Shown piece after piece: positions 24,476 to 41,985 of a stretch of 64,000 nucleotides of DNA (positions are counted from its first letter, which is position 1; every line of letters starts with the position of its first letter). The translations under genes and the position numbers were made by a program. The notes beneath the pieces were generated by a model. That model had not been told where the DNA came from. It ran no database searches and was given only the letters and a program-made list of their open reading frames with translations. The DNA is from Muribaculaceae bacterium (GTDB taxonomy: Bacteria; Bacteroidota; Bacteroidia; Bacteroidales; Muribaculaceae). The DNA lies in the NCBI GenBank assembly GCA_017557425.1, contig JAFYYU010000012.1:62001-126000 (forward strand). Direction: 5' to 3'.

Positions 24476-25116
24476 ACATATATCGAGATTATATTAAGCG
24501 AGTGTTGGGATTCTGCATTTCGCTTGTTGCAATAATATGTTTGTCGCCGCTATTGCTGGTGGTGACCATCTGGCTTCACTTCGCCAACAAAGGGGCTGGC
24601 GCTTTCTTCTTTCAGGAACGACCAGGTAAGAATTCTAAAATCTTCAAAATTATTAAATTCAAGTCAATGACTGATGAGCGGGATGAGAATGGGCATCTGT
24701 TGCCCGATGCTCAAAGATTGACGAAGATTGGTTCCATTGTGCGTAAAACATCCATTGACGAGTTGCCTCAGCTGATAAATGTGTTTAAGGGTGATATGGC
24801 TTTAATCGGGCCAAGGCCACTATTGCCTGATTATCTTCCGTATTATACTGAAAGAGAACAATTGAGACATGCTGTTCGGCCAGGGATAACAGGTTGGGCC
24901 CAAGTGCATGGCCGAAATCATACTACATGGGATGAAAAATTGGAAAACGATGCTTATTATGTAGAGCACATGTCATTTCTGATGGATTGTAAAATAATTC
25001 TTGCAACTATAAAGAATGTGCTGCAAGGGAAGGACATTGATGTGGTACCAGCAATGAAAAGTCTTAGACTGGACGATGAACGCAAGGGTAAAAGTAATGC
25101 AAATCAGAGAACTTGA
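24472..25116 (+). CDS. Initiating phosphoglycosyltransferase (PglC-like)
   Basis: A 214-residue bacterial sugar transferase that starts repeat-unit synthesis by moving a sugar-1-phosphate from a UDP-sugar to undecaprenyl phosphate. The start is GTG at 24,472, overlapping the previous stop (GTGA). A single hydrophobic segment at about residues 10-35 is the re-entrant helix of the small, monotopic PglC class. Signature pieces are FFFQERPGKNSKIFKIIKFKSM, a TSIDELPQLINV segment with the catalytic Asp-Glu pair, GPRPLLPDY and PGITGWAQVHGRN. With PglE- and PglD-like proteins elsewhere in the locus, the primer may be a bacillosamine-type amino sugar. Confidence 0.95.
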   Translation: MNIYRDYIKRVLGFCISLVAIICLSPLLLVVTIWLHFANKGAGAFFFQERPGKNSKIFKIIKFKSMTDERDENGHLLPDAQRLTKIGSIVRKTSIDELPQLINVFKGDMALIGPRPLLPDYLPYYTEREQLRHAVRPGITGWAQVHGRNHTTWDEKLENDAYYVEHMSFLMDCKIILATIKNVLQGKDIDVVPAMKSLRLDDERKGKSNANQRT

Positions 25117-28028: not shown

Positions 28029-29728
28029 ATATATTGTTTACTTGTGCGGGCAGGCGCACTTATTTGTTAAAGTATTTTAAGGAGCAATTAGGGGATGGCG
28101 GCAAGATTATTGGTGCTGATATGCAGTTGACAGCCCCAGCTTTATCTGCAGCTGATGAACGTGTGCTTGTACCTGCAGTATACGATGAGCATTATGTGGA
28201 TGCATTGCTCGAAATCTGTGAGTTGCATAAAGTAGATGTCCTGATATCACTTAATGACCTTGAATTGCCAATTCTTGCAGATAAAAAGTCGTTGTTCAGT
28301 GAAATTGGCACAACTGTTCTTGTATCTTCCCCTGACGTTATTGACATTTGTTTTGACAAACTGAAGACCAGTCAGTATATCGAGTCATTGGGTTTAAGAA
28401 CACCTAAGACTTTTTCGGACCTAGATGCTGCGATGAATGCACTGCATACAGGAGAGTTACAATTTCCATTGGTGATAAAACCTCGTTGGGGATCTGCTTC
28501 TATCGGTATTGAATATGTCGATAGTATTGAGGACTTGCAAGTAATATATGAACTGATCAAACGGAAAATTCGTCGAGGTATTCTAGGTGAAGTTTCCCAA
28601 CATGATGAGAATTTTATTCTCATACAGCAGAAGATTACAGGTAAGGAATATGGTCTTGACATTATCAATGATCTGAGTGGCAACAATGTCTCTGTTTCTG
28701 TCAAACAAAAACTTGCAATGCGTGCTGGAGAAACTGATAAAGCTACGACGGTTGACAGTGAAGAATTAAGACGCATTGGTCAAGTTATTGGAAGTAATTT
28801 GGGCCATATCGGTAATTTGGATTGTGATATTCTGGAAATGGATGGCAAGTTCTATATATTGGAACTGAACCCACGTTTCGGAGGCGGATTCCCGTTCTCA
28901 TACCAAGCCGGTGTGAACCTTCCTAAAGCAATTATCAAATGGATTAAAGGTGAGCCGTTTGATAATAACGAATTGTGCCCTGTATATGGATTAACCTATG
29001 CCAAATGTGATTATTTGGTTGATATGACACGTAAGGTCGTACATCAAACACAACAACAGAGCATAGCAGTGAATGGGGTTAAGAAGATTGCTGTATATGG
29101 TGCTGGCGGACTTGGCCGTGAGGTGGCTGGTGGCATTCAGCGTATCAATAACGGTGGCCGTCAGCAATGGGAGATTATTGGCTTCTTCGATGATAATATC
29201 CCGGTTGGGACGCAGGTATCGCACTTTGGGCATGTGCTTGGCGGTATTGAAGAACTCAACGCTTTCGGTGAACCTCTTGCATTGGCGATTGCAGTCGGTT
29301 CTCCCAAGACACGCAAGCAGATTCATGACCGCATTACTAACTCCAATATCAGCTTCCCCAACTTGATAGCTCCGTCGTTCAGGGTTCTTGATAGGCAAAC
29401 TTTTGAGATTGGTGAGGGAAATATCATCCAGGACAACTGCAGTGTGACGTGCGATGTGAAGATCGGCAATTTCAATGTCTTGAATGGCTCTAATGCACTG
29501 GGACATGACGTATGCGTGGGTGACTTCAATGTGCTGATGCCTGGCGTGCGCTTGTCTGGAGAGGTAACCGTTGGCAACTGTAATCTGCTGGGGGTGGACA
29601 GTATTGTGCTGCAGCGCGTCAAGATGGGCGACTGCGTCACTCTGGGCGCAGGCAGTGTAATGATGACCAAGCCCAAAGATGGCTTTACCTATATCGGCAT
29701 TCCCGCTAAGAAGTTTGACTACGAATAA
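28025..29728 (+). CDS. ATP-grasp protein fused to a NeuD/PglD-like acyltransferase
   Basis: A 567-residue two-domain protein. Residues 1 to about 340 form an ATP-grasp ligase: TCAGRRTYLLKYFKE at the N-terminus, FPLVIKPRWGSASIGI for ATP binding, and LELNPRFGGGFPFSYQAG for Mg-ATP. Residues about 349-567 form a NeuD/PglD sugar acyltransferase: IAVYGAGGLGREVA, then a left-handed beta-helix with repeated hexapeptides and the end GIPAKKFDYE. The acyltransferase half closely matches the separate 213-residue protein at 36,562. The fusion suggests that a ligase-made substrate is passed directly to a sugar N- or O-acyltransferase. Confidence 0.92.
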   Translation: MNILFTCAGRRTYLLKYFKEQLGDGGKIIGADMQLTAPALSAADERVLVPAVYDEHYVDALLEICELHKVDVLISLNDLELPILADKKSLFSEIGTTVLVSSPDVIDICFDKLKTSQYIESLGLRTPKTFSDLDAAMNALHTGELQFPLVIKPRWGSASIGIEYVDSIEDLQVIYELIKRKIRRGILGEVSQHDENFILIQQKITGKEYGLDIINDLSGNNVSVSVKQKLAMRAGETDKATTVDSEELRRIGQVIGSNLGHIGNLDCDILEMDGKFYILELNPRFGGGFPFSYQAGVNLPKAIIKWIKGEPFDNNELCPVYGLTYAKCDYLVDMTRKVVHQTQQQSIAVNGVKKIAVYGAGGLGREVAGGIQRINNGGRQQWEIIGFFDDNIPVGTQVSHFGHVLGGIEELNAFGEPLALAIAVGSPKTRKQIHDRITNSNISFPNLIAPSFRVLDRQTFEIGEGNIIQDNCSVTCDVKIGNFNVLNGSNALGHDVCVGDFNVLMPGVRLSGEVTVGNCNLLGVDSIVLQRVKMGDCVTLGAGSVMMTKPKDGFTYIGIPAKKFDYE

Positions 29729-29743
29729 GAAAAGCATACTACA

Positions 29744-30487
29744 ATGGATTATAATCCTTTTTCTCTCAAAGGCAAGGCCATCCTGGTCACTGGCGCTTCA
29801 TCGGGTATCGGGCAGACGACAGCTGTCTCATGTGCACAAATGGGCGCCGAAGTGGTTATCACCGGACGTGATGCCGAGCGATTACAGGCGACATCTGATC
29901 TCATCGGAACGCCAGTTACGCAAATCTCCGCCGACTTGACCAACAATGATGATGTCGAACGTCTGGTAGCGTCTCTCCCGCCTCTTGATGGGGCAGTGTT
30001 GTGCGCAGGTAACTCGACGACATTGCCGTTGCAGTTTGGCACACGTGAGAAGTTTGACGACATGTTCAATGTCAATTTCTTTGCTCCGGTCGAATTGTTG
30101 CGGTTAATGTATAAAAAGAAGATTCTCCAGAAAGGCGCATCGGTCGTGTTGATCGCTTCGATAGGAGGCACACACAGTTTCATGCCAGGTAACGGCGTGT
30201 ATGGGGCCTCTAAAGCGGCTCTTAACTCACTGATGAAATACGCCGCCCGTGAGTATGCCTCACGCAAGATACGTGTCAACAGCATCTGTCCTGGTATGGT
30301 GGATACCCCATTGATTCATCGGGGTACCATTACCGAGGAACAGTTAGCCGAAGATGCCAAGCGTTATCCTTTGGGCCGATATGGAAAGCCCGAAGATATC
30401 GCCAACGGTGCGGTTTATCTGTTGAGCGACGCATCGTCCTGGCTTACAGGGCATGATTTGGTTATTGATGGCGGCTTTTCAATATAG
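29744..30487 (+). CDS. SDR-family oxidoreductase (FabG-like)
   Basis: A 247-residue short-chain dehydrogenase/reductase. The cofactor site TGASSGIG lies at residues 16-23 and the catalytic Tyr-x3-Lys at 153-157 (YGASK), with the Ser about 13 residues earlier. The overall pattern resembles 3-oxoacyl-ACP reductase FabG, including SICPGMVDTPL and the late ending LTGHDLVIDGGFS. It lies 15 bases after the ATP-grasp fusion and just before two ACP genes, so it may reduce a ketoacyl-ACP in the adjacent acyl module. Acting on a nucleotide-linked sugar is an alternative. Confidence 0.88.
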   Translation: MDYNPFSLKGKAILVTGASSGIGQTTAVSCAQMGAEVVITGRDAERLQATSDLIGTPVTQISADLTNNDDVERLVASLPPLDGAVLCAGNSTTLPLQFGTREKFDDMFNVNFFAPVELLRLMYKKKILQKGASVVLIASIGGTHSFMPGNGVYGASKAALNSLMKYAAREYASRKIRVNSICPGMVDTPLIHRGTITEEQLAEDAKRYPLGRYGKPEDIANGAVYLLSDASSWLTGHDLVIDGGFSI

Positions 30488-30502
30488 TTTTTTCTTGATT
30501 TT

Positions 30503-30533
30503 TTTGTGAATTTCAAAAATGTGTGTACTTTTG
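30503..30533 (+). promoter_or_regulatory. Bacteroidetes-type promoter before ACP genes
   Basis: A TTTG at 30,503-30,506 and a perfect TAnnTTTG (TACTTTTG) at 30,526-30,533 are 19 bases apart, the normal layout of a sigma-ABfr promoter. Transcription would begin near 30,540 and run into the ACP gene at 30,583. It suggests that the acyl module is its own transcription unit, separate from the upstream reductase. Confidence 0.65.
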
Positions 30534-30565
30534 CCAATTGATTTGATGGAATTGGTTGTTTAGAA

Positions 30566-30577
30566 CGTAATTACACC
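30566..30577. promoter_or_regulatory. 12-base element shared with the second ACP operon
   Basis: The sequence CGTAATTACACC here is the exact reverse complement of GGTGTAATTACG at 37,340-37,351. Both contain the palindrome GTAATTAC, and both lie in the leader between a TAnnTTTG box and the start of an atypical ACP gene. It may be an operator or RNA-level control site; no regulator is known to bind it. Confidence 0.35.
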
Positions 30578-30582
30578 ACGAT

Positions 30583-30816
30583 ATGAATTTAGAGGACTTT
30601 ATTGAAAACTTTGCTGCACAGTTCGACGACACTGATGCGGAAATGTTTACCGCCGAAACTAATTTCAAGCAGTTAGATGAGTGGTCATCACTGGCTGCAT
30701 TGTCAATTATTGCGATGGTTGACGATGAATATGATGTAATTATCAAGGGTAATGATATCATCAGTTCTGATACCATAAAAGACTTGTTTGATGTTGTCGT
30801 CAAATTGCGTGGATAA
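30583..30816 (+). CDS. Acyl carrier protein with Ser-Ser-Leu variant site
   Basis: A 77-residue acidic four-helix protein of acyl carrier size. The presumed phosphopantetheine attachment site reads EWSSLAAL around residues 33-40, so Ser36 is preceded by Ser and not by the Asp of the usual DSL motif. Otherwise the pattern (FKQLDEWSS, MVDDEYDV, DLFDVVVKL) fits ACPs. It is a paralogue of the ACP at 37,367, which has the same variant. It sits just after a clear promoter and 26 bases before a second, ordinary-looking ACP. It presumably carries the acyl chain handled by the KASIII-like enzymes. Confidence 0.85.
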   Translation: MNLEDFIENFAAQFDDTDAEMFTAETNFKQLDEWSSLAALSIIAMVDDEYDVIIKGNDIISSDTIKDLFDVVVKLRG

Positions 30817-30842
30817 ATCGCTGCCTTTCATTAGGCGCATCA

Positions 30843-31073
30843 ATGGAATTACAAGTAAAAGAAATTATAGCCCGCGTGTTGAACGTGGCTTTGGATCAGA
30901 TTACTGATGACTTGTCATCGGGTGATATACCCGAGTGGGACTCTGTCGGTAATTTGGCAATTATAAGTACATTAGAGCAGGAACTAGACTTGGAGTTTCC
31001 GCTCGAAGATCTCTTTGATTTGACCTCCGTCCGCTCGATAGTCGAGGAGGTTGAGCAGCTGACTAATGTTTGA
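30843..31073 (+). CDS. Acyl carrier protein (canonical DS site)
   Basis: A 76-residue ACP with the normal attachment motif: PEWDSVGNL with Ser34 preceded by Asp33. The amphipathic helices VKEIIARVLNV and VRSIVEEVEQL frame it. Its last codons overlap the ATG of the AMP-forming ligase by eight bases, so this carrier is most likely the partner loaded by that ligase. Together with the atypical ACP just before it, two carriers with different sites are made from one transcript. Confidence 0.9.
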   Translation: MELQVKEIIARVLNVALDQITDDLSSGDIPEWDSVGNLAIISTLEQELDLEFPLEDLFDLTSVRSIVEEVEQLTNV

Positions 31074-32535
31074 AGCCCCTCACAGCATCCTGCTGTGTGA
31101 AATTTCAAGGCATGCTATTGAAACCCCCGACAAGATTGCTCTTGTTGAGGGCGATACTCGTGTGACTTATGCCCAGCTGATGGCCAACATCGAGATGACG
31201 GCACATGCTATGCACTCATTGGGCTTGAAGTCTGGTGACCGCATTGTGCTGGCGGCACAGAAGGAACTGGGCTTTGTCTATCATTATTTTGCAGCCCATT
31301 TGCTGGGCGTGGTCAATGTGGTGGTGGATGTGGCATCACCACGTGAACGCCTGGACTATATTATCAGTGTTGTCAAGCCGTCGGCGTTATTCAGTTCAGG
31401 ACTCGAGGTAGTCCAAGGAGTGGCGTGTTATTCCTTCAATCGGCCGGAACCTGAAGAGGGCCAACTGCTTGATACGGAATTGCCAACAATCGCTGCTGAC
31501 GATGTGGCCGATGTAATGTTCACCACAGGAACCACAGGAGTCCCAAAGGGCGTGTGCCTCACCCATGCCAATATTGCAGGCTCGGCCGGAAATACTAACG
31601 GCTTTATCGGAACCTGTTCCGGTGACATCGAGGCCTTGGCGCTCCCACTGAGCCATTCGTTTGGGCTTGGACGTTTGCGCTGTGTGCTCATGAAAGGAGC
31701 CACACTGGTGCTTGTCGGCAATTTCGCCAACCTGAAGTCGTTTTTCTCAGTTCTTGACACTTGGCATGTAACTGGTTTTGGCATGGTGCCAGCTGTATGG
31801 CAATACATCAAGCGCCTGAGTGGAAGGCGCATAGCCCGCTTTGCCGACCAGTTGCGGTATATTGAGATAGGCAGTGCCGCCTTACCTGTCGAGGACAAAC
31901 TGCTCCTTATGGAGCTGTTCCCGAATACACGCCTGTGCATGCACTACGGTCTTACCGAAGCCTCACGTGCCATGTTTACGGAATTCCACTCACATTCCGA
32001 CAATCTGGATACCGTCGGCCGTCCCGCTTCGCCATTTGTCGAGGCAACGGTTCGTGACGATGATGGCAATCCAGTCGCCAATGGTGTGGACGGCGAGATT
32101 TGCGTGCGTGGCAATATGGTCACCTGGTCCTATTTCAAGCCCGAAGATAACGCTGACAGTTTTTACGGCGATTGGTTCCGCACGGGGGACTGGGGACATC
32201 GCGATGACAATGGCGATTTTTACCTGACAGGAAGGAAAAAAGAACTAATCAACGTGGGGGGCGAGAAAGTGAGTCCCGCAACAATTGAGGACGCGATACG
32301 CTCCCTAGGTGTCACCGATTGTGCATGCATCGCTGTGCCTGACCCCAATGGGGTCTTGGGCGAGGTACCCAAGGCATTTTTGCAAAAGGGTGATAACCAA
32401 ATGGATATTGACGACATCAAGAACCAACTGGGCCGTATGCTGCCACCGCATGAAATTCCTGTTGAGTGGGAATGGGTTGACAGCATTCCGCGCACAGCTT
32501 CGGGAAAAATACAACGATTAAAACTCAAACAATAA
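31066..32535 (+). CDS. AMP-forming acyl-ACP/CoA ligase
   Basis: A 489-residue ANL-family enzyme that activates a carboxylic acid with ATP and passes it to a thiol, here probably an ACP. The phosphate-binding loop is TTGTTGVPKG at residues 153-162; YGLTEAS, WFRTGDWG, TGRKKELINVGGEK and the C-terminal catalytic lysine in ASGKIQRLKLKQ are all present. It overlaps the upstream ACP gene. The pairing suggests loading of a free acid onto the carrier. The acid could be a short hydroxy, branched or aromatic acid; the pocket cannot be read from sequence. Confidence 0.93.
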   Translation: MFEAPHSILLCEISRHAIETPDKIALVEGDTRVTYAQLMANIEMTAHAMHSLGLKSGDRIVLAAQKELGFVYHYFAAHLLGVVNVVVDVASPRERLDYIISVVKPSALFSSGLEVVQGVACYSFNRPEPEEGQLLDTELPTIAADDVADVMFTTGTTGVPKGVCLTHANIAGSAGNTNGFIGTCSGDIEALALPLSHSFGLGRLRCVLMKGATLVLVGNFANLKSFFSVLDTWHVTGFGMVPAVWQYIKRLSGRRIARFADQLRYIEIGSAALPVEDKLLLMELFPNTRLCMHYGLTEASRAMFTEFHSHSDNLDTVGRPASPFVEATVRDDDGNPVANGVDGEICVRGNMVTWSYFKPEDNADSFYGDWFRTGDWGHRDDNGDFYLTGRKKELINVGGEKVSPATIEDAIRSLGVTDCACIAVPDPNGVLGEVPKAFLQKGDNQMDIDDIKNQLGRMLPPHEIPVEWEWVDSIPRTASGKIQRLKLKQ

Positions 32536-32538
32536 GAT

Positions 32539-33603
32539 ATGTCACAACTTACCATCAACAACGTGCGTATTGCAGGCATGAGTGCCTGTGTGCCCGCTAC
32601 CGTTGAGGACAATCGCACTCTTCCCATCTACAAGGACGAGAACGATGCCCTCAAGGTCATTGCTTCGACAGGCATTGAGCGCCACCACAAGGTGGATTCC
32701 GGTACGACGGCATCTGATCTCACTGTCAAAGCTGTAGAGCGACTGCTGGAAGAAATGGGATGGAAACCAGAGGACGTGGACTGTTTTGCCTACGTTTGCA
32801 CTTCCCGGGATTATATCGCTCCACAGACAGCCTGTGTCCTTCAGGACCGGTTAAAGTTGCGCAGCGATTGCTGTGTGTTTGACTTGCCCTTCGGCTGTTC
32901 GGGATGGGTCTATGGTATGAGTATCGTCGCTTCCATGATGTCACATGGAACTCTTAAACGGGCCATTCTGGTGGCTGCCGAGACCAATACCCAGAACCGC
33001 AACCCCCGCGACACAACGGTGCGCCCGCTGTTTGGAGATGCGGCTACGGCCACGGCATTGGAGTACGATTCCGAGCGTTCACATCCCATGAATTTCATGT
33101 ATGGTGTTGACGGCAAGGGTTTTGATGCCGTTTGGGCTCCTTATGGTGGAATGCGTAATCCGGTCACTATCGAGTCGTTGGAAGAGAAAGAGGTTTCGCC
33201 TGGCGTTTTCCGTCGTGGCGTCGATATGATTGTCAACGGCATGGATGTCTTTGGGTTCGCCATCAAGCAGCCGCCGCGCTCGCTCAAGGAGTTAATAGCG
33301 ACCTTTAACATTGATATTGAGACCGTTGACTTGTTGCTCCTGCATCAAGCCAACAGGTTCATCGATGAAAAGATACGCAAAGCCATCAAGATTCCGCCCG
33401 AGAAGACCCCATATTGCCTCGAGGAGTATGGCAATGTCACGAGCGCATCGATTCCCCTGACCATGGTGACCCGCTGTCACGATAAACTTTCAGGCGGCAA
33501 TGAACAGCATTGCCTGGCCTGCGGATTTGGCGTCGGACTGGCATGGGCAAGTATGGAATTTTATGCCGGTGGCTTGAAAATGTGTGACGTGATTACTTAT
33601 TAA
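32539..33603 (+). CDS. KASIII-like 3-oxoacyl-ACP synthase
   Basis: A 354-residue FabH-like protein. The catalytic triad is intact: Cys120 in FGCSGW, His269 in LLLHQANRF and Asn299 in YGNVTS. It should either condense an acyl thioester with a malonyl-ACP or, as some relatives do, transfer an acyl group to an oxygen or nitrogen. It starts three bases after the ligase. A second enzyme of the same kind lies at 37,713 with a different pattern around the active site, which suggests two distinct substrates or steps. Confidence 0.92.
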   Translation: MSQLTINNVRIAGMSACVPATVEDNRTLPIYKDENDALKVIASTGIERHHKVDSGTTASDLTVKAVERLLEEMGWKPEDVDCFAYVCTSRDYIAPQTACVLQDRLKLRSDCCVFDLPFGCSGWVYGMSIVASMMSHGTLKRAILVAAETNTQNRNPRDTTVRPLFGDAATATALEYDSERSHPMNFMYGVDGKGFDAVWAPYGGMRNPVTIESLEEKEVSPGVFRRGVDMIVNGMDVFGFAIKQPPRSLKELIATFNIDIETVDLLLLHQANRFIDEKIRKAIKIPPEKTPYCLEEYGNVTSASIPLTMVTRCHDKLSGGNEQHCLACGFGVGLAWASMEFYAGGLKMCDVITY

Positions 33604-33614
33604 GCGATAGTATT

Positions 33615-34715
33615 ATGGCCAAATACATCAATTCCAACCAAGAGTACTACTGGGGTGACTGGTATTTCAAGAACCACGTCATGCCTGCCGACTTTAACTA
33701 TAAAACGCATAAGAAGGAGCTCTCTCCATACTTCGAACAGCGCGGTTTCAAGGTCTCGATGATGTTCGATGACTATTTCTCCAGTTTGAGCGGTATCCAC
33801 AGCGACCGTTATCTGTCGATGGATGTTTACTACTTCTATGTGATCCCCGCGCTTAACCGCCATGACTTCAAGGACGCTTATCTGGATAAGAACATCTACA
33901 GCGAGCTTTTCCCCCAGGTGAAACAGCCCGTCGCAGTCATCAAGAACATCCACGGCCATTATTATAGAAACGGTGAGGAAATCACCCTCAACCAAGCTGT
34001 CGAGGCCGTTTGCGCCGCTGAACACGAGCTCATTATCAAACCCACTGTTGAGACTTGCAATGGCGAGGGAGTAGAACAGATTGATAATCGTGACCCCCAA
34101 AAGTTAAGCGCTTTGTTCAGTCAATATGCCCTCAACTTCATTGTGCAGGAGAAAGTAAAGCAGCATCCTGACTTGCAGCGTGTTAACCCCACGTCACTTA
34201 ACTCGATGCGCCTCTATACTTATCGTCGCCAAGACGGAAGCTACGAGTACCTGTATCCATTTGCCCACATGCGCTTTGGTGGCAAGGGCGCCATTAAGGA
34301 CAATGTTTCTCAAGGTGGCGGCACTTGCCTGATTCTTGATGACGGCAAGGTTGACGACAGGGTTTATCGTTTCAAGAACATGGAAGTGTCTTCGCTCAAG
34401 CGTGAGACGGGGGTGGAGAATCTCGTTGTCCCCAATTACGGCAAGGTGATTGAAACATTGCTGTCATTGCACAGGCGATTGCCATATTTCGACTTTGTGG
34501 GGTGGGATGTCACGGTTTTGCCCGACGGTGATCCCTTGCTCATCGAGTTTAATCTCGTGCCTAGTGTGGAAGGCCCTCAGATGATGGCAGGACCCATGTT
34601 CGGGCCTTATCTTGACGAGATTATTGACCGTGCTCGACAGGTGGATTGTGCAAGAATGCAGACGTTCAAAAAGACATTTCCCAAGGAAATGAACTTTTAT
34701 TTGCACATGCAATGA
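33615..34715 (+). CDS. Sugar-transfer associated ATP-grasp protein
   Basis: A 366-residue protein of the ATP-grasp family often found next to glycosyltransferases (ATPgrasp_ST). Recognisable parts are FKVSMMFDDYF near the N-terminus, ELIIKPTVETCNGEGV for ATP binding, HPDLQRVNPTSLNSMRLYTY, the NVSQGGGTCLIL loop and DVTVLPDGDPLLIEFN with metal-binding residues. It should couple a carboxylate to an amine or hydroxyl using ATP. It lies 11 bases after the KASIII-like gene, so the product may be joined to an acyl or sugar intermediate made by that module. The substrates are unknown. Confidence 0.88.
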   Translation: MAKYINSNQEYYWGDWYFKNHVMPADFNYKTHKKELSPYFEQRGFKVSMMFDDYFSSLSGIHSDRYLSMDVYYFYVIPALNRHDFKDAYLDKNIYSELFPQVKQPVAVIKNIHGHYYRNGEEITLNQAVEAVCAAEHELIIKPTVETCNGEGVEQIDNRDPQKLSALFSQYALNFIVQEKVKQHPDLQRVNPTSLNSMRLYTYRRQDGSYEYLYPFAHMRFGGKGAIKDNVSQGGGTCLILDDGKVDDRVYRFKNMEVSSLKRETGVENLVVPNYGKVIETLLSLHRRLPYFDFVGWDVTVLPDGDPLLIEFNLVPSVEGPQMMAGPMFGPYLDEIIDRARQVDCARMQTFKKTFPKEMNFYLHMQ

Positions 34716-34780
34716 CGTTTAAGACAATTTTTGTTGTTTTTTCACGTTATATTTAAAAATAGTTACCAACGAATTAACAA

Positions 34781-35365
34781 GTGGTCATACGGCAAGTCGT
34801 GAATACGGTATTTAACTCGTGCAGCTATGTCCTTTCCGGAGGCGGTGTCTCGTGGATTGTGGACTGTGGTGACGTGGACTTGCTGTTGCCTCTTATCGAA
34901 GGTCAGTTGCGAGGGGTGATGATTACCCATTCCCATTTTGATCACATCTACGGATTGAACAATCTGTTGGCTTTGTTCCCCGGAATTCGTGTTCTGACCA
35001 ACGAGGCTGGCCGCGAGGGACTGCTCTGTGACAAATTGAATTTCTCAAGGTATCACGAGACCCCCTTTGTCCTGGATGCACCTGAGAATATCGAAATCAT
35101 TGCCGATGGTGATAATGTGAACCTCTTTGAGGATGTCAGTGCCCAAGCCGTCTATACACCGGGACATAGTCCTTGCAGTGTGACATGGCAGGTGGGAAAC
35201 GCACTTTTTACAGGCGATAGCTACATACCTGGCGTGAAAACGGTAACTAATTTTCCGAACTCCGACAAGAGGGTGGCCCAACTCAGCCGTGAATACATCC
35301 TGCAACTGGCACAGCAAGGGCAGGTCTATCCAGGTCACCCCGCCCAGTCAGAGGTTGAATTATAG
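34781..35365 (+). CDS. MBL-fold metallo-hydrolase
   Basis: A 194-residue metallo-beta-lactamase-fold hydrolase, started at the GTG at 34,781. The metal-binding THSHFDH lies at residues 49-55, followed by TPGHSP, LFTGDSYI and the late PGHPAQ. It resembles glyoxalase II-like thioesterases, so an activity releasing an acyl group from an ACP, CoA or glutathione is conceivable; this is inferred from the neighbourhood. A 65-base A+T-rich gap separates it from the ATP-grasp gene; no consensus promoter is visible there. Confidence 0.88.
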   Translation: MVIRQVVNTVFNSCSYVLSGGGVSWIVDCGDVDLLLPLIEGQLRGVMITHSHFDHIYGLNNLLALFPGIRVLTNEAGREGLLCDKLNFSRYHETPFVLDAPENIEIIADGDNVNLFEDVSAQAVYTPGHSPCSVTWQVGNALFTGDSYIPGVKTVTNFPNSDKRVAQLSREYILQLAQQGQVYPGHPAQSEVEL

Positions 35366-35386
35366 TGAAAAGAAGAAAAAGAGACT

Positions 35387-36529
35387 ATGGCTAATAACAA
35401 AATACTGCTTTGTCTGGCTCATATGAGTGGCCAGGAAATGAAATACATCCAAGAGGCGTTTGACACCAACTGGGTCGTGCCCCTTGGCCCCAACGTGAAT
35501 GCATTTGAAGAGGATTTGGAGCGCCTCTGCGGCCAGAACAAGAAAGTTGTAGCCCTCAGTTCGGGAACGGCAGCTATTCATCTGGCCCTCGTCAAGTTGG
35601 GCGTTGGGCGTGACGATGAGGTCATCTGCCAGTCGATGACTTTCTCGGCAAGCGCTAATCCGGTGACCTACCAGGGCGGAACCCCTGTGTTTGTCGATAG
35701 TGAGCCTGATACATGGAACATTGACCCGAATCTTCTCGAGGATGCCATCAAGGACCGCATTGCAAAAACAGGACGCAAGCCCAAAGCCATCATCCCCGTT
35801 TATCTCTATGGCATGCCGGCCAAAATTGACGATATCTTGGAGATTGCCAACCGTTATGAGATTCCCGTTGTCGAGGATTCGGCCGAGGCTTTCGGATCAC
35901 GTTACCGTGGACAGTTGTGCGGCACCTTTGGCAATTATGGCATTATGAGCTTCAACGGCAACAAGATGATTACCACCAGTGGCGGTGGCGCGCTCATCTG
36001 TCCTGATGAGGAGGCGAAAAAGAAAATCATGTTCTACGCCACTCAGTCGCGTGAGCCCATGCCTTACTACCTGCACAAGGAGATTGGTTATAACTACCGC
36101 ATGAGTAACATCTGCGCTGGTATTGGACGCGGACAGATGACCGTCTTTGAGGAGCATTTGGCACATCACAAGCATTTATGTAATCGTTATGTGGAATTGT
36201 TCGCCGATATTGACGGTATCGACGTTCACACCAATTATGATGAGCGCTCGGACAGCAATTTCTGGCTCAACACCATCCTGATCGACCCGGCAAAGACCGG
36301 TACTGACTATGAGACGGTGCGTCTTCACTTGGATGCGTGCAACATCGAGTCACGCCCCCTGTGGAAGCCCATGCACACTCAGCCCGTATTCTCGGGAGCA
36401 CCTGCCTATGTCAATGGCGTCAGCGAACACCTCTTCTCTCGAGGTTTGTGCCTGCCCAGCGGACCCTGGGTGACCGATGAGGACGTCGAGCGTGTGGCTC
36501 GCGAGATCATCGCTTGCTGCAAGAAATGA
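35387..36529 (+). CDS. DegT/DnrJ/EryC1 sugar aminotransferase (PglE-like)
   Basis: A 380-residue PLP-dependent aminotransferase that converts a 4-keto nucleotide sugar to the 4-amino sugar. The PLP lysine is in FNGNKMITTSGGG (Lys193), preceded by SSGTAAIHLALVKLGV for phosphate binding, SMTFSASANPVTYQGG, and EDSAEAFGS with the Asp that holds the pyridine nitrogen. It closely resembles PglE-type enzymes of the bacillosamine pathway. The next gene is a PglD/NeuD-like acyltransferase, giving a classical aminotransferase-acyltransferase pair. The 4,6-dehydratase of that pathway is not in the window. Confidence 0.92.
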   Translation: MANNKILLCLAHMSGQEMKYIQEAFDTNWVVPLGPNVNAFEEDLERLCGQNKKVVALSSGTAAIHLALVKLGVGRDDEVICQSMTFSASANPVTYQGGTPVFVDSEPDTWNIDPNLLEDAIKDRIAKTGRKPKAIIPVYLYGMPAKIDDILEIANRYEIPVVEDSAEAFGSRYRGQLCGTFGNYGIMSFNGNKMITTSGGGALICPDEEAKKKIMFYATQSREPMPYYLHKEIGYNYRMSNICAGIGRGQMTVFEEHLAHHKHLCNRYVELFADIDGIDVHTNYDERSDSNFWLNTILIDPAKTGTDYETVRLHLDACNIESRPLWKPMHTQPVFSGAPAYVNGVSEHLFSRGLCLPSGPWVTDEDVERVAREIIACCKK

Positions 36530-36561
36530 GGACTTGAATAATTAACTAAAACCTATAAACA

Positions 36562-37203
36562 ATGAATATCGCAATCTATGGAGCTGGGGGATTTGGCAAG
36601 GAAGTGGCCTGCCTCATCAACAGGATCAACGCCAATGGCGGGGATTGGCATTTGATAGGCTTCTTCGATGACTCTAAACCCGTTGGAATGCCCGTGTCCA
36701 GCTATGGAACGGTGATTGGCGGCATGGATATGCTGGCCGAATACAGTGAGCCGCTGGCCATTGCTATCGCAATCAACGACAATAAGACAGTCAGGAGAAT
36801 CCGCGAGAGCATCAGCAATCCCAACATCACGTTCCCCAACTTGATTGACCCGTCGCTGTTTCTTGTTGATGAAAACACCTTTAAGATGGGTGAGGGTAAC
36901 ATCATTCAGAATGACTGCATGATTTCATGCGATGTGACGATAGGAGATTTCAACCTCATCAATGACCACGTCGTGGTGGGGCATGACAATGTGATCGGCG
37001 ACTTCAATGGACTCATGCCGGCGGCACATCTCTCTGGCGGTATTACCATCGGAGACAACAACCTGTTGGGTGTGGCCAGTGTCGTTCTGCAAGGAATGGT
37101 CATCGGTAATGGTGTCACTCTGGGTGCCAATAGCGTGCTCATGACACAACCTCGTGACAATGCCACTTATCTAGGCGTACCTGCCAGGAGGTTTGACTTT
37201 TGA
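36562..37203 (+). CDS. NeuD/PglD-like sugar acyltransferase
   Basis: A 213-residue left-handed beta-helix acyltransferase: IAIYGAGGFGKEVA at the N-terminus, FFDDSKPVG, then hexapeptide turns and an ending of YLGVPARRFDF. PglD enzymes acetylate the 4-amino group of UDP-bacillosamine precursors. The catalytic His is expected in the HVVVGHDN stretch. It is a close paralogue of the C-terminal half of the fusion at 28,025. Its partner aminotransferase lies just upstream. In this context the acyl donor could be an acyl-ACP instead of acetyl-CoA (inference). Confidence 0.93.
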   Translation: MNIAIYGAGGFGKEVACLINRINANGGDWHLIGFFDDSKPVGMPVSSYGTVIGGMDMLAEYSEPLAIAIAINDNKTVRRIRESISNPNITFPNLIDPSLFLVDENTFKMGEGNIIQNDCMISCDVTIGDFNLINDHVVVGHDNVIGDFNGLMPAAHLSGGITIGDNNLLGVASVVLQGMVIGNGVTLGANSVLMTQPRDNATYLGVPARRFDF

Positions 37204-37311
37204 TGATCCTTGAGAGCTGTATTTTTCTCTTGTTTGGGTCATGATTGAACTGATTTTAGAAAAAAGTGCTGTAAAAATTGGTTAGAAAGTGCTGAATTAA
37301 GTTTTTTTGTG

Positions 37312-37319
37312 TAATTTTG
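37312..37319 (+). promoter_or_regulatory. TAnnTTTG promoter box before the second ACP operon
   Basis: A perfect TAnnTTTG (TAATTTTG) lies 48 bases before the preferred ACP start. A T-rich run precedes it, but no TTTG sits at the expected 19-21-base distance, so the upstream element is weak. It follows the stop of the NeuD gene by about 110 bases, the longest gap in this part of the locus, which supports a separate transcript. Confidence 0.5.
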
Positions 37320-37339
37320 CACCCGCTAAATAAAATCAT

Positions 37340-37351
37340 GGTGTAATTACG
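37340..37351. promoter_or_regulatory. 12-base element, inverse copy of the one at 30,566
   Basis: GGTGTAATTACG matches the reverse complement of the element at 30,566-30,577 without a mismatch. It lies in the same context: downstream of a TAnnTTTG box and 15 bases before the ATG of the second variant ACP gene. Confidence 0.35.
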
Positions 37352-37366
37352 GTGTATTTACAGCAG

Positions 37367-37600
37367 ATGAATTTGGATCAATTCATAGAATACTTCGCAG
37401 ATCTGTTAGATGAAACAGACTCTGAAAATATAACGGCCACAACTCAATTCAAGGATTTGGAAGAGTGGTCTTCACTTGTTGCATTGTCAGTCATTGCGAT
37501 GGTTGACGAGGAATACGATGTGGAATTCCGCGGAGATGACATTCGCAACAGCAATACCGTTGAAGACCTGTACAATGTAGTCAAGAAAAAGGTAGGGTGA
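37367..37600 (+). CDS. Acyl carrier protein with Ser-Ser-Leu variant site
   Basis: A 77-residue ACP from the ATG at 37,367 (a GTG at 37,352 is an alternative). It matches the ACP at 30,583 along its whole length, including MNL at the start, EEWSSLVAL with Ser36 as presumed attachment site, and IAMVDEEYDV. Here too the usual Asp before the Ser is replaced by Ser. It is the first gene of the second acyl operon and is followed by a KASIII-like gene. The duplication of gene and leader implies that both operons came from one ancestral unit. Confidence 0.85.
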   Translation: MNLDQFIEYFADLLDETDSENITATTQFKDLEEWSSLVALSVIAMVDEEYDVEFRGDDIRNSNTVEDLYNVVKKKVG

Positions 37601-37712
37601 TGTAGCGTCGCTATTAGCACCCTCCCTGCACCCGGCTTAAAGCCCGAGTGTATCTCATAAAATCTTTCACGAGACATCTTTTCACCACGTTAAGAGTTAA
37701 CACCCTCTTACT

Positions 37713-38762
37713 ATGGCAAAAATTACTTTTCAAGGAGTAGGCATCAAGGCTATGAGCGCTTGTGTGCCCCCTGAGGTCGTCTATAATAAAGACCTCGGCT
37801 ACCTCATTCCTGAGGAAGAAATCGAAAAAACCATCAACAACATCGGCATTGAGCAGCGGCGCATCGCCGCCCCCGATGTGACCGCCAGTGACTTGTGTTA
37901 CAAGGCTGCACAACAGTTGATGGAGGATAACGACATAGATCCCGCCAGCATCGACGTGCTCTTGTTCATGAGCCAGACTCCGGATTACCGCATCCCGGCA
38001 ACGTCATGCCTGTTGCAGCATCGTTTGGGATTGCCGCGCGAGACCATGTGTTTTGACATCTCGCTGGGTTGCTCAGGATACTTGTTCGCCCTGAGCACTG
38101 CCTTTGCTTATGCTTCGATGCAGGGTGTCAACCGCGTGCTTCTCCTTGACGGCGAGACGTTCTCCAAGATTGTCAATCGTCGTGATAAGGTGGACTGGCC
38201 CCTTTATGGCGATGCGGGCACGGCGACGCTGATCGAGAAGGGCGACTATGGCACATCGACTTTCCTGCTCTATACCGACGGCAGCGGTGAAGACGTGCTT
38301 AAGATCCATGCGGGGATGAGAAACCCGATTACTCCTGACTCCTGTGTGGAACGTGAGCGCGAGGACGGCAATATCCGCACTGACCTGGAGGTGTTTATGG
38401 ATGGTATGGATGTTTTCAATTTTGCCATCAGCAAGGTCCCCAAGAGCATAAAACTGTTGCTCAGTGAGACGGATCATACCATCGACGACTTGGACTATCT
38501 GGTTTTCCATCAGGCCAACCGCTTCATGATGGACTTCTTTGTCAAGAAACTCAAGATGGACCCGGCGCGCGTGCCTTATTGCATCAACAAGTATGGCAAC
38601 ACCAGCAGCGCTTCGGTACCCTTAACTGTCGCCAGCGAGCTGGTGGGACGGTTAGACGGTGAGCGCTTGGTGATGATGAGTGCCTTCGGCGCCGGTTTGA
38701 GTTGGGGCTCTGCCCTCATGCCGATGCGTGACTGCAAGATCTCTCCTGTCATCGAGTACTGA
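37713..38762 (+). CDS. KASIII-like 3-oxoacyl-ACP synthase
   Basis: A 349-residue FabH-like protein with intact Cys120 (LGCSGY), His266 (VFHQANRF) and Asn296 (YGNTSS). It is a paralogue of the enzyme at 32,539 but with different residues round the active site, such as GCSGYLF in place of GCSGWVY. It lies 112 bases after the variant ACP gene and its stop overlaps the VOC gene's ATG by one base. It may extend the acyl chain or transfer it. The combination of ACP and KASIII repeats that of the first operon. Confidence 0.92.
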   Translation: MAKITFQGVGIKAMSACVPPEVVYNKDLGYLIPEEEIEKTINNIGIEQRRIAAPDVTASDLCYKAAQQLMEDNDIDPASIDVLLFMSQTPDYRIPATSCLLQHRLGLPRETMCFDISLGCSGYLFALSTAFAYASMQGVNRVLLLDGETFSKIVNRRDKVDWPLYGDAGTATLIEKGDYGTSTFLLYTDGSGEDVLKIHAGMRNPITPDSCVEREREDGNIRTDLEVFMDGMDVFNFAISKVPKSIKLLLSETDHTIDDLDYLVFHQANRFMMDFFVKKLKMDPARVPYCINKYGNTSSASVPLTVASELVGRLDGERLVMMSAFGAGLSWGSALMPMRDCKISPVIEY

Positions 38763-39160
38763 TGTTGACTTTTCATCACATAGGCATCGCCTGCCGCGAT
38801 ATTACGAAAACCCAGGACTTCTATTTGCACATGGGTTATACGGCCTCGCCTATAGTCGAAGACCCGGTGCAGCATGTGCGCATCAGTTTTCTGGAGAAAG
38901 AAGGGGCGCCGCGGTTGGAACTTCTTGAGCCGCTCGATGAAAAGAATCCGGTGGCACGCACCCTGGCCACAGCTGGAGTGTCCCCCTATCACATATGCTA
39001 TGAGGTAGAGGATATTGAGGCTGCCATTGCCGAACTGCGTAGTCAACGGTTCTTGCTTGTCAATGACCCTGTTCAGGCATGTGCGATGGACAATAAAAGA
39101 ATCGCTTTTCTCTATCAAAAGAATACCGGACTCATCGAACTGGTTGAAGCACAACCATGA
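38762..39160 (+). CDS. VOC-fold (glyoxalase-like) protein
   Basis: A 132-residue vicinal-oxygen-chelate protein resembling methylmalonyl-CoA epimerase. It begins with LTFHHIGIACRDI, giving the metal-binding His, and ends with a Glu in GLIELVEA. It could epimerise or isomerise an alpha-substituted acyl thioester carried by the ACPs, an inference from family and neighbourhood. Its start overlaps the KASIII stop, and its stop overlaps the next GT2 gene, so it is translated with both. Confidence 0.85.
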   Translation: MLTFHHIGIACRDITKTQDFYLHMGYTASPIVEDPVQHVRISFLEKEGAPRLELLEPLDEKNPVARTLATAGVSPYHICYEVEDIEAAIAELRSQRFLLVNDPVQACAMDNKRIAFLYQKNTGLIELVEAQP

Positions 39161-40164
39161 TGGATGAACTGCTGTTGACATACATCATCCCGCTTTATAA
39201 CACCGAGCACTATGTGCTACGGTGTTTGCATTCTATTGTAAATCAGCAGCTCTGGCCAAACGATTACGAGGTGCTTGTCGTTGACGACGGCTCGACTGAC
39301 GGCAGCAGGTCTGTTGTCGAGACTTTTGTCAGCGAGCACCCTCAGGTGAAGTTGTTGACACAGGAGAATTCCGGTGTGAGCGCTGCACGTAATCTTGCCT
39401 TGGACAACGCCCGTGGCCGTTATATCATGTTTGTGGATAGTGATGACCGTTTAGAGGACGAAGTGGTTCACCGATTGGTGCAGCATGCGGTTGACGATGA
39501 CCTTGACGTACTCTCGTTCAACTATCGTTGCGAGAATTCGCAGGGCAATTCGTTACCGCACACTCGCGACGACAACTATGGGTCAACTGCTGTCATGACG
39601 GGCTGTGATTTCCTCGATGGGCACAGCATGACGCCTTATGTGTGGCGTTTTCTCATTAAACGTGATTATCTGGAACGGAGCGGATGGCGTTTTGACACCT
39701 CACTCATCGCGTGTGAGGATGGCGCGCTTATTGCCAGATTCCTGCTAAATGCACCGCGCATGGCCCACGACGATACCGTTGCCTATTGCTATGTCAACCG
39801 CAGCGATAGCGCGATGCATAAAACCGATAAAGACCACTTGAGGCGCCGCGTATATAGCCAGGTCGATGCGGCCGCATCGATCGACACTTCCGCACGGCAG
39901 TTCGAGGCCGCTACTGGCCGCAAGGCCCCTGCAAGTGTTGACGGCGTGAGGAATGTCTATCTCTATTTCTCAATGACCAAGGCATTGACGTGTGGCCTGG
40001 TGGACGAGGTGTTGGATCGGATCCGTAAGGCAGGTCTCTTTCCTTTCCCGTGTATAGGTCCTGAAGCCGACTATCACGGCACGAAATGGAAAATGATCCA
40101 CCGCTTGATGATGGTTCCGGGCCTATGGCGTTTTTTAAGCAAAATCTATCAAATGATCAAATAA
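39157..40164 (+). CDS. GT2 family glycosyltransferase
   Basis: A 335-residue GT2 enzyme: IIPLYNTEHYVLRCLHSIV at the N-terminus, DDGSTDGSR for nucleotide binding, GVSAARNLAL, and DSDDR for the metal. An ACEDGALIARFL stretch is the likely catalytic site. It overlaps the VOC gene by four bases and is followed by the FkbH-like gene after four bases. Its position inside the acyl module suggests that it transfers the modified sugar, or acts just after modification. Confidence 0.92.
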   Translation: MMDELLLTYIIPLYNTEHYVLRCLHSIVNQQLWPNDYEVLVVDDGSTDGSRSVVETFVSEHPQVKLLTQENSGVSAARNLALDNARGRYIMFVDSDDRLEDEVVHRLVQHAVDDDLDVLSFNYRCENSQGNSLPHTRDDNYGSTAVMTGCDFLDGHSMTPYVWRFLIKRDYLERSGWRFDTSLIACEDGALIARFLLNAPRMAHDDTVAYCYVNRSDSAMHKTDKDHLRRRVYSQVDAAASIDTSARQFEAATGRKAPASVDGVRNVYLYFSMTKALTCGLVDEVLDRIRKAGLFPFPCIGPEADYHGTKWKMIHRLMMVPGLWRFLSKIYQMIK

Positions 40165-40168
40165 AGAA

Positions 40169-41761
40169 ATGACAACATTTGTCTTTCGCAATCAGACGGT
40201 TGAGCCTTTCCTAGACTATGACGGCATGATTTATTCGGGTTATGACGACATCAGCGTGACGCATGCCGATGCTGATAGGTATATCTGGTTTTATCAGGTG
40301 CCTGTCAACGCTAACAGCGTCCAATTAGCCGAAGAGATTGATTCCTATCGTGGCAAATTGGATTTGGTGCTCTCTGGTATCGATAACCAAAAACCGTTTA
40401 TCGTCTTCTCGCTGGTTAACCTGTTTCCATTGAGGGTGACAGGTGACCAAACCGCTCTGGACGAGGCCATTGCTGCCTTTAATGCTCATGTGGCTCAGTT
40501 GTCGCGTGAACGTCGCAATGTCAAGTGGGTGGACTTTTCTGAATTCACCCTGCGTTATGATGCTGACATGCTCATCAACTGGAAGTACTTCTTGATGTCC
40601 CAAACACTTCTCAACCCCAAGCTGGCACATGATTTCCAGGCATGGTGGTCTCGAATCGAGGAGGAACTGTCCATGAAACGCAAAAAATGCCTGGTATTGG
40701 ATTTGGACAACACGTTGTGGGGTGGTGTGCTGGGTGAAGACGGCATTGACGGAATCCGATTGGGCGGCGACTATCCCGGTAAGGCCTATACCTATTGGCA
40801 ACGTTCCCTGTTGCAGTTGTCACGTCACGGCGTGATACTGGCTGTTTGCAGCAAGAATAACGAGGCAGATGTGATCGAGGCCTGGGAAAAGAATGCGGCT
40901 ATGGTACTCAAGCGTGAGCACTTCAGCGCTGTGCGCATCAATTGGAAAGATAAGGTGACCAACATGCGTGAATTGGCGGCTGAACTTAACATCGGACTCG
41001 ATAGCATGGTGTTCCTCGATGATAGTCCCATCGAGCGGGAACTCGTCAAGCAGATGTTGCCTGAAGTCGAAGTGCCTGATTTCCCTGATAAACCTTATGG
41101 CCTGATGCCGTTCTTTAAGGAGCTGCTGGAGAAGTATTTCCGTATCTATTTAGTCACCGACGAGGACCGCTCGAAGACTGAGCAATATCAGGCCAATGCC
41201 CTCCGTCAGGCCGAGCAGTCGCGTTTCACCGATCTCGAGGGTTATCTCTATAGCCTTGACATGTCGCTTGATATCATTCCCGCCGATGAGCACAATCTGC
41301 CGCGCATTGCCCAGATGACGCAGAAGACCAACCAGTTCAATCTCACCACTCGCCGCTATGACGAGGCCGCAGTGCGGCAACGTCTGGATGACGGATGGCG
41401 CATTTATTGCATGAGTGTGAGAGACCGCTTCGGCGACAGTGGCATCACGGGCACCATCTTTTTGGAACCCGTCGATGACTTGACGATGCACATCGATACA
41501 CTTTTGCTCAGTTGCCGCATTTTGGGCCGCGGCATCGAAGAAGCGTTTATCAAGACGGTGTTTAACCTGTTGCGGCTGGATGGATTCAGGAAGGTAAAGG
41601 CAGTCTATCTGCCTACCGCGAAGAACAGCCAGACTGCCGATTTCTATGACCGAATGGGCATGACGTGTATGAGCGTTGATAACGATGGTGCGAAGCATTA
41701 CGAGATGCCTTTAACGGATGTGTTTGAGTTGAAGAATTACTACAATATAAGAGTGTTATGA
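40169..41761 (+). CDS. FkbH-like HAD-IIIC protein
   Basis: A 530-residue FkbH-type protein. The HAD phosphatase core starts at LDLDNTLWGG (Asp178 and Asp180), followed by VCSKNNEADV and FLDDSPIERE. The C-terminal 150 residues resemble the GNAT-like part of FkbH proteins (RFGDSGITG, then LLSCRILGRGIEEAF). Known FkbH homologues take a glyceryl group from 1,3-bisphosphoglycerate and load it on an ACP. The ACP gene at 41,758 follows with a four-base overlap, the classical pairing. A glyceryl substituent on the polysaccharide is therefore a concrete possibility. Confidence 0.92.
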   Translation: MTTFVFRNQTVEPFLDYDGMIYSGYDDISVTHADADRYIWFYQVPVNANSVQLAEEIDSYRGKLDLVLSGIDNQKPFIVFSLVNLFPLRVTGDQTALDEAIAAFNAHVAQLSRERRNVKWVDFSEFTLRYDADMLINWKYFLMSQTLLNPKLAHDFQAWWSRIEEELSMKRKKCLVLDLDNTLWGGVLGEDGIDGIRLGGDYPGKAYTYWQRSLLQLSRHGVILAVCSKNNEADVIEAWEKNAAMVLKREHFSAVRINWKDKVTNMRELAAELNIGLDSMVFLDDSPIERELVKQMLPEVEVPDFPDKPYGLMPFFKELLEKYFRIYLVTDEDRSKTEQYQANALRQAEQSRFTDLEGYLYSLDMSLDIIPADEHNLPRIAQMTQKTNQFNLTTRRYDEAAVRQRLDDGWRIYCMSVRDRFGDSGITGTIFLEPVDDLTMHIDTLLLSCRILGRGIEEAFIKTVFNLLRLDGFRKVKAVYLPTAKNSQTADFYDRMGMTCMSVDNDGAKHYEMPLTDVFELKNYYNIRVL

Positions 41762-41985
41762 ACGCCTTGGAAGAGAAAGTTTTGGAGATTATGCGTGAGA
41801 CCTTCGGGGTGGAGGCGCTGACGACAGATGCATCACAAAAGAATTGTGAGTCATGGGACTCATTGAGGCACCTCGCGTTGGCCTCTGAGCTGGAAGACGC
41901 GTTTGATTTGGAGTTGGAGCCCGAGGAGATTGCCGAGATGACCGACTTCTCACGCGTCATTGCGATGCTTGAATCGAAATTGTAA
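41758..41985 (+). CDS. Acyl carrier protein (partner of the FkbH-like protein)
   Basis: A 75-residue ACP with the normal site: CESWDSLRHL, Ser35 preceded by Asp34. Leu/Glu-rich helices follow (LASELEDAFDLELEP). Its ATG overlaps the FkbH-like stop, so the two are made together, and FkbH should load this carrier. It is the fourth carrier protein in the module; no dedicated phosphopantetheinyl transferase is visible in the window. Confidence 0.9.
   Translation: MNALEEKVLEIMRETFGVEALTTDASQKNCESWDSLRHLALASELEDAFDLELEPEEIAEMTDFSRVIAMLESKL

Follow-up and report, generated by a model that had tools for sequence, protein, structure and literature searches.

We analysed a 64,000-nucleotide stretch (hereafter the window) of the genome of a Muribaculaceae bacterium (GenBank assembly GCA_017557425.1, contig JAFYYU010000012.1, positions 62,001 to 126,000), in which a plus-strand gene set at 29744-41985 combines four acyl carrier proteins (ACPs) with an FkbH-like protein, an AMP-forming acyl ligase and two 3-ketoacyl-ACP synthase III enzymes (KASIII-1 and KASIII-2). 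The best explanation of this set, to which we give a probability of about 0.5, is that acyl groups are assembled on carriers, with glycerate as the starter of KASIII-2, for use in a bacillosamine-type sugar pathway. Gene content, conservation, co-occurrence, catalytic residues and pocket differences were obtained by computation, and from them we infer each reaction, the order of the steps and the product.

In the proposed route, the FkbH-like protein (40169..41761) would take glycerate from 1,3-bisphosphoglycerate and place it on ACP4 (41758..41985). A vicinal oxygen chelate (VOC) protein (38762..39160) would alter the glyceryl-ACP4, perhaps at its C2 configuration, and KASIII-2 (37713..38762) would join the glyceryl starter to a malonyl unit held on the WSSL-type carrier ACP3 (37352..37600), a two-carbon extension. 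Ketone reduction by a FabG-like short-chain dehydrogenase/reductase (SDR; 29744..30487) would then give something like 3,4,5-trihydroxypentanoyl-ACP3. In a parallel line, the ligase (31066..32535) would put a second acid on ACP2 (30843..31073) for KASIII-1 (32539..33603), with the product on ACP1 (30583..30816). NeuD/PglD-type transferases would use the product to acylate the 4-amino group of a UDP-sugar supplied by a 4,6-dehydratase and a PglE-like aminotransferase (35387..36529), and a PglC-like phosphoglycosyl transferase (24472..25116, plus strand) would begin the repeat unit with the acylated sugar. A metallo-beta-lactamase (MBL)-fold protein (34781..35365) may clear stalled carriers; a role as carrier thioesterase is possible.

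The initial annotation had treated the whole set as one pathway for one acyl group, a view that does not survive comparison with relatives, which display at least three separable units. From 129 loci, 112 distinct FkbH loci (FkbH scoring at least 250 bits) were profile-scored over same-strand genes no more than 8 kb away. The cleanest subset comprises 45 of them, in which FkbH reaches at least 500 bits, the 27 loci of the genus group are left out, and each flank spans 3 kb or more. Two or more carriers were found in 27 of 28 KASIII-2-positive loci of this subset and in none of the 17 KASIII-2-negative loci, and the SDR gave the same counts (27/28 versus 0/17). Across all 112 loci, at least two carriers accompany FkbH in 62/67 loci with KASIII-2 and in 2/45 without it; the corresponding figures for the SDR are 41/67 and 6/45, most SDRs of the genus lying beyond the 8-kb limit. 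When mapped onto an FkbH tree with 73 proteins, the KASIII label switches nine times, eight of them forced by supported branches, and in the eight supported independent pairs the carriers and the SDR each track KASIII in seven and never reverse (p = 0.0156). VOC does not track KASIII (18/28 with KASIII-2 and 11/17 without, in the 45-locus subset); NeuD counts are linked to KASIII-2 there (18/28 versus 1/17). Because carriers and SDR track KASIII in counts and in independent pairs and VOC does not, KASIII-2, SDR and the second ACP behave as one unit, and FkbH, ACP4 and often VOC as another.

The first of these units also occurs on its own. The KASIII-2 query matched 27 of 390 phylum genomes, the window's included, and one locus was fetched from each of 20 of the other 26; FkbH was found in none of these 20 loci. 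In their displayed neighbourhoods 18 carry an SDR label, 16 a NeuD-type and 13 a PglC-like gene, and nine hold two KASIII genes. An FkbH-less version of the cassette is widespread. Homologues of the ligase were found in 20 of 294 family genomes, 16 with the cassette (the window's included) and four without. In three FkbH-less loci (L330-L332) ACP2, ligase and KASIII-1 adjoin an SDR, with NeuD and a WSSL carrier added in two of them, and in a fourth (L329) the ligase has no adjacent KASIII-1. Because L330-L332 hold ACP2, ligase and KASIII-1 without FkbH, the ligase block is a third, movable unit.

The carriers divide along the same lines. ACP1, ACP2 and ACP3 pass the PF00550 cut-off of 20.8 bits (22.1, 35.5 and 27.9 bits, respectively), and ACP4 falls just below it (20.6 bits). 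ACP1 and ACP3 have Ser-Ser (WSSL) at the position where ACPs usually have Asp-Ser; ACP2 is of the WDSV type and ACP4 of the WDSL type. In FkbH loci, the ACP directly 3' of FkbH reads W-D-S in 82 of 85 cases and W-N-S in the other three. The 61 other ACPs comprise 50 W-S-S, five W-T-S, two F-/Y-S-S, two W-D-S, one W-N-S and one unread, so Asp precedes the Ser in only 2/61 carriers that are not directly 3' of FkbH. For the ligase-adjacent ACP, the window and 14 relatives have WDSV, and all four FkbH-less ligase loci have WDSM. By these motif classes of loader-adjacent and other carriers, the four ACPs of the window are two of each kind. The motifs suggest ACP4 as the glyceryl carrier, ACP2 as the starter carrier of the ligase, and ACP1 and ACP3 as probable product or extender carriers. 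One carrier was detected in each of the 20 FkbH-less phylum loci (WDSL in 15, WSSL in three, WNS in two). The source genome has two phosphopantetheinyl transferase (PPTase) candidates. A 2423-residue frame resembling nonribosomal peptide synthetases, with two carrier domains and a PPTase candidate nearby, was noted at C15:201258-207505 of the same genome.

Both KASIII enzymes retain the Cys-His-Asn triad. Cys112, His244 and Asn274 (Escherichia coli FabH numbering, used throughout) are present in 67/67 FkbH-linked KASIII-2, 30/30 FkbH-linked KS1-class and 29/29 FkbH-less enzymes. Position 87 of FabH sets starter choice according to the mutagenesis cited in the text available from PMC3734052. 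KASIII-2 of the window has Ile87 and Tyr157, and KASIII-1 has Ala87 and Val207. Ile87 occurs in 54/54 VOC-positive FkbH loci and in 1/13 VOC-negative ones, where the others have Gln (8), Ser (3) or Met (1). Column 87 is the most VOC-associated one among the 40 rows from outside the genus (Fisher p = 2.3e-9, a value uncorrected for lineage or number of columns). Similarly, Ala87 together with Val207 marks 25/25 ligase-adjacent KASIII-1 and 0/11 other KS1-class enzymes, and Tyr157 is found in 57/67 FkbH-linked KASIII-2 versus 0/29 and 0/30 FkbH-less enzymes. Pocket residues differ among VOC-positive, VOC-negative and FkbH-less loci.

The FkbH-like protein scored 291.6 bits with TIGR01686 (curated cut-off 146.65). 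Its D178/D180, D284/D285 and Cys449 are invariant in 11 aligned orthologs and its haloacid dehalogenase (HAD) motif is intact, consistent with a probable role as the glyceryl loader. The VOC protein resembles methylmalonyl-CoA epimerases (CoA, coenzyme A) but misses the TIGR03081 cut-off (72.1 versus 114.95 bits), and in it Val replaces a Glu, common to the human and Streptomyces epimerases, that we take to be the catalytic base. The equivalent position is hydrophobic in 25 of 27 aligned VOC proteins, the other two having Glu (L082) and Gln (L086). We rejected an ordinary methylmalonyl-CoA epimerase on these two grounds, the score below the family cut-off and the replaced Glu. Because VOC accompanies FkbH both in loci with KASIII and in loci lacking it, the simplest substrate to propose for VOC is glyceryl-ACP4; as to the chemistry of VOC, C2 epimerisation is our first guess and dehydration the second. 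The initial statement that all catalytic residues are intact holds for the KASIII triads, the FkbH HAD motif and Cys449, with caveats for the Ser-Ser of ACP1 and ACP3 and the Val of VOC.

FkbH and an ACP also start the methoxymalonyl pathway in the tetromadurin and other clusters, as described in the accessible part of PMC7489565, and glyceryl-ACP4 could by analogy be turned into a hydroxymalonyl-type unit that KASIII adds to another acyl chain. That route, in the same text, needs two dehydrogenases acting on glyceryl-ACP, and no such pair was seen from the SDR to ACP4; glycerate as an extender is in our view very unlikely.

Several neighbours suggest the acceptor. Among solved chains the DegT aminotransferase is closest to 1o61 and 4ztc, which we take to be Campylobacter PglE; it lies below the cut-off for LegC aminotransferases (TIGR04181, 360 versus 420 bits), to which it is related without being a member. 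The NeuD protein (36562..37203; TIGR03570, 156 bits against a cut-off of 160.8) groups with N-acetyltransferases of pilin glycosylation, perosamine and UDP-N-acetylbacillosamine. The PglC-like transferase matched 8e37, a diacetylbacillosaminyl-1-phosphate transferase, with 215.9 bits versus 109.6 bits for WbaP. A 680-residue Polysacc_synt_2 protein elsewhere in the genome is a 4,6-dehydratase candidate. Given these PglE-, PglD- and PglC-like neighbours and the Polysacc_synt_2 protein, the acceptor is probably a bacillosamine-type amino sugar. They also fit the core of the initial idea, that a special acyl group is built on a carrier and then put on an amino sugar.

Alternatively, the acyl group might go to a hydroxyl through the acyltransferase-3 membrane protein (42010..43026, plus strand; PF01757, 97.9 bits) that flanks the set, or be released as a small molecule. 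ACP4 is followed by the acyltransferase-3 gene in 17 of the 18 genus loci, as this would predict; however, no such label stands directly 3' of ACP4 in the non-genus loci compared, and NeuD-like genes accompany many non-genus cassettes. We see only a very slight chance for this alternative, and the association of acyltransferase-3 with the cassette is uncertain.

Other observations weigh against a single line from glycerate to an extended acyl amide. Of 89 loci whose FkbH scores at least 500 bits, 15 contain VOC and lack KASIII-2, and since VOC-FkbH-ACP4 is found without KASIII, glycerate can be used unextended. NeuD does not track KASIII in the independent pairs of the FkbH tree, and two NeuD domains persist in L061 and L066, both without the ligase block. 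L269, L270, L272 and L334 have no loader yet contain one or two W-S-S carriers, and two (L333 and L334) of another four FkbH-less stretches from the order have two carriers and several KASIII genes. As to the pocket, a tree from which the pocket columns were omitted leaves three supported independent VOC contrasts (two agree, one is neutral; p = 0.5). Among 30 KASIII enzymes from FkbH-less genomes of the order, 16 have Ile87, all lack Trp32, and Arg36 is replaced by Lys in nine and by a non-basic residue in 21.

Three candidate arguments were set aside on these grounds. Ile87 is not a hallmark of FkbH loci, as 16/30 FkbH-less enzymes carry it. The source genome's housekeeping FabH retains Trp32 and Arg36, but loss of these CoA-contact residues is no proof of an ACP-borne starter because FkbH-less relatives have lost them too. 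The assignment of one NeuD to each acyl group is ruled out by the gene content of the variant loci; the transferases cannot be assigned, because L061 and L066 keep two NeuD domains without the ligase block. That pocket residues track the loader is suggestive only and confounded with lineage, because independent VOC contrasts are few and Ile87 is common in FkbH-less enzymes.

A rival reading is that of separate short groups, in which a plain glyceroyl would pass through FkbH, VOC and ACP4 to NeuD, and KASIII, SDR and a WSSL carrier would make a 3-hydroxyacyl group from a CoA starter, on the model of FkbH-less loci, the two lines never being condensed. FkbH-ACP4 and KASIII-ACP-SDR are each found alone, the window has two NeuD domains, and N-(D-glyceroyl)-Qui2NAc4N is known in the Pragia fontium O-antigen, according to the text seen of PMC10609480. 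Unextended glycerate is a real rival because this N-glyceroyl sugar is known and VOC-FkbH-ACP4 occurs alone. On the other hand, KASIII, the second carrier and the SDR vary together across FkbH loci, the genes are contiguous over large distances, and uncondensed lines would not predict pocket differences between VOC-positive, VOC-negative and FkbH-less loci. We regard separate groups as rather unlikely and prefer the extension of glycerate by KASIII-2.

Parts of this proposal resemble known systems. The DegT, NeuD and phosphoglycosyl transferase proteins match the PglE, PglD and PglC types of the bacillosamine pathway (PglF-PglE-PglD-PglC); unlike in that pathway, an acyl-ACP would replace acetyl-CoA as the donor, and the dehydratase candidate lies elsewhere in the genome. 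In Vibrio cholerae O1, the tetronate genes rfbKLMN include an ACP and an acyl ligase that make the N-acyl group of an O-antigen sugar; to our knowledge they include no KASIII and no FkbH. The initial annotation knew of no described system with the whole set, which is compatible with the literature searched, but there is a close precedent: wfpB-wfpG with pglE/pglF of Flavobacterium psychrophilum, predicted in the text available from PMC6519341 to make a 3,5-dihydroxyhexanoyl-Qui2NAc4N of the O-antigen by steps resembling type II fatty acid synthesis. That text describes a PglC homolog, two ketoacyl-ACP synthases, an ACP, a ketoacyl reductase, a PglD-type transferase and PglE, with a carrier-built acyl group destined for a 4-amino sugar; it makes no mention of FkbH, VOC, a ligase or a second carrier. 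The window holds ketosynthase, ACP, ketoreductase and PglD-type, PglC-like and PglE-like proteins together, as a wfp-type cassette requires. We liken the window and the FkbH-less loci to wfp at the level of this described gene content. The idea of a carrier-built N-acyl cassette thus has a described precedent, of which the FkbH-bearing form is a variant.

The loader has its own parallel in tetronate clusters, where an FkbH-like protein and its own ACP are proposed to form glyceryl-ACP for a FabH-like enzyme (PMC7489565, in the part available). The glycerate operons described there (e.g. mad7, mad8 and mad16-18) likewise pair an FkbH-like protein, a dedicated ACP and a FabH-like protein; the window differs in its glycan context and in having an SDR, a second carrier, a PglD-type transferase and VOC. 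No family match to an Agg4-like acyltransferase or Agg5-like dehydratase was found in the interval, where no direct search with Agg4 or Agg5 was made. The listings of open-licence literature searched contained neither FkbH nor a loader-KASIII pairing in a polysaccharide pathway; one of these listings turned up tetronates and further natural products.

The cassette is not confined to this genome. FkbH was found in 37 of 297 family genomes (28 of the 37 near full length), 23 of 295 order genomes and 25 of 395 phylum genomes, counts that include the window's own genome. We compared loci from 27 family relatives and two others, with genes labelled by BLAST; the genus relatives are L060-L077 (n=18). 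The initial annotation had suggested seeking the same set in other loci, and it is not unique: all 14 listed genes are kept in 11/18 genus relatives. The block ACP1-ACP2-ligase-KASIII-1 is retained in 14 of the 18 (in L068 a contig end interrupts it), and three (L061, L062 and L066) lack both the block and ATP-grasp. Single losses affect the NeuD gene in L065, ATP-grasp in L072 and the MBL gene in L076.

Farther afield, a scan of a genome collection for FkbH gave the best 80 of at least 539 confirmed relatives; the nearest named relative among those 80 is on a contig of the uncultured Prevotellaceae RUG401 (ONKU01000001.1, 89% identity). Bacteroides fragilis, Chryseobacterium, Bergeyella and Verrucomicrobiota share a core of NeuD, ACP, SDR, KASIII-2, sometimes VOC, FkbH and ACP4. 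B. fragilis Q1F2 (L171) has NeuD, ACP, SDR, KASIII-2, FkbH and ACP4 without VOC, and B. fluxus (L202) reads ACP-SDR-KASIII-2-FkbH-ACP4 with no VOC and no NeuD label. The cassette is also present in Bergeyella (L203, L207) and Chryseobacterium jejuense CC143 (L205), the SDR standing 3' of ACP4 in all three of these Weeksellaceae loci, and in three Verrucomicrobiota loci (L211-L213). B. fragilis Q1F2 and C. jejuense CC143 are cultured strains bearing the core cassette. In the FkbH tree the verrucomicrobial proteins nest within Bacteroidota; their branch is long and moderately supported (81/78), a position that hints at transfer.

Further observations concern FkbH relatives. A second, more distant FkbH is present in the B. 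fragilis Q1F2 and C. jejuense genomes (L278 and L279; 396 and 391 bits, respectively). A Bacteroidota-type cassette (L177) lies on a contig filed as a Candidatus Methanofastidiosia archaeon, which may be a binning error. In two genomes of one genus outside the class (L135, L136), NeuD, KASIII, FkbH and ACPs stand beside a PglC-like gene; their KASIII proteins, at 36-37% identity, form a distant clade with His157.

All genes listed by the initial annotation are present on the plus strand of 29744-41985, and family searches confirmed the families named. Besides the scores already given, these are PF13561 for the SDR (190.9 bits), PF00501 for the ligase (223.5 bits), PF14397 for ATP-grasp (33615..34715; 94.7 bits) and PF00753 for the MBL-fold hydrolase (56.2 bits, with a THSHFDH motif). 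Spacing between the genes ranges from an 8-base overlap to a 148-base gap. The original list is extended by a family 2 glycosyltransferase (GT2; 39157..40164, plus strand; PF00535, 119.6 bits) inside the interval, and by the acyltransferase-3 and an ATP-grasp/NeuD (PglD-type) fusion (28025..29728, plus strand) on its flanks; a homologue of the fusion adjoins the SDR in most genus relatives. The described placement among glycosyltransferase genes of a surface-sugar locus was borne out by a glycosyltransferase run around the interval, together with an EpsG family protein, a pyruvyl transferase and a small phosphoglycosyl transferase. Compared with L060, the nearest relative fetched, the 16 genes from 29744 to 43026 have dN/dS of 0.019-0.131, rough values given the high dS of 0.7-1.7; the cassette genes are real, intact and under strong purifying selection. 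Simple acetylation only was rejected because too many carrier genes are conserved and under selection, in agreement with the earlier view that the set exceeds what acetylation requires. The source genome is a 2.58-Mb draft, 85% complete, and Rfam and transfer RNA scans gave no matches.

Elsewhere in the glycan locus, a pyridoxal phosphate-dependent enzyme of the D-cysteine desulfhydrase/1-aminocyclopropane-1-carboxylate deaminase type (25594-26520) precedes a 514-residue open reading frame (26484-28028) that matches neither Pfam nor NCBIfam and has a homologue at 40% identity in L065. A CDP-glycerol glycerophosphotransferase-like protein (7509-8639; PF04464, 268.5 bits) lies amid glycosyltransferases, and a 1023-residue protein (45609-48680) has many near-identical leucine-rich-type repeats and a dockerin-like end, judged from its sequence.

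More broadly, we tentatively propose a modular "mini-polyketide" code of glycan loci, a possible scheme that, taken jointly in all its parts, we would sooner doubt than assert. It would combine an interchangeable loader, a KASIII whose primer pocket is tuned to the loader, a distinct W-S-S product carrier and a PglD-type transferase. FkbH with its ACP would load glycerate and a ligase with its ACP other acids, and loci with no loader would use CoA starters; VOC, where present, would perform previously undescribed chemistry on glyceryl-ACP. The output would be polyhydroxylated acyl amides (for example 3,4,5-trihydroxypentanoyl) that have spread between phyla. For the glyceroyl group of Tannerella forsythia, the responsible gene is stated to remain elusive in the text seen of PMC6120980; if the code is true, FkbH with its ACP would be the gene type to seek behind N-glyceroyl sugars such as this one. 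Predicted exact mass increments of the sugar modifications would be +88.016 for glyceroyl, +132.042 for trihydroxypentanoyl and +176.069 for tetrahydroxyheptanoyl. The acyl group on amino sugars would then be readable from the glycan locus, and tetronate-type glycerate chemistry would be linked to surface polysaccharides.

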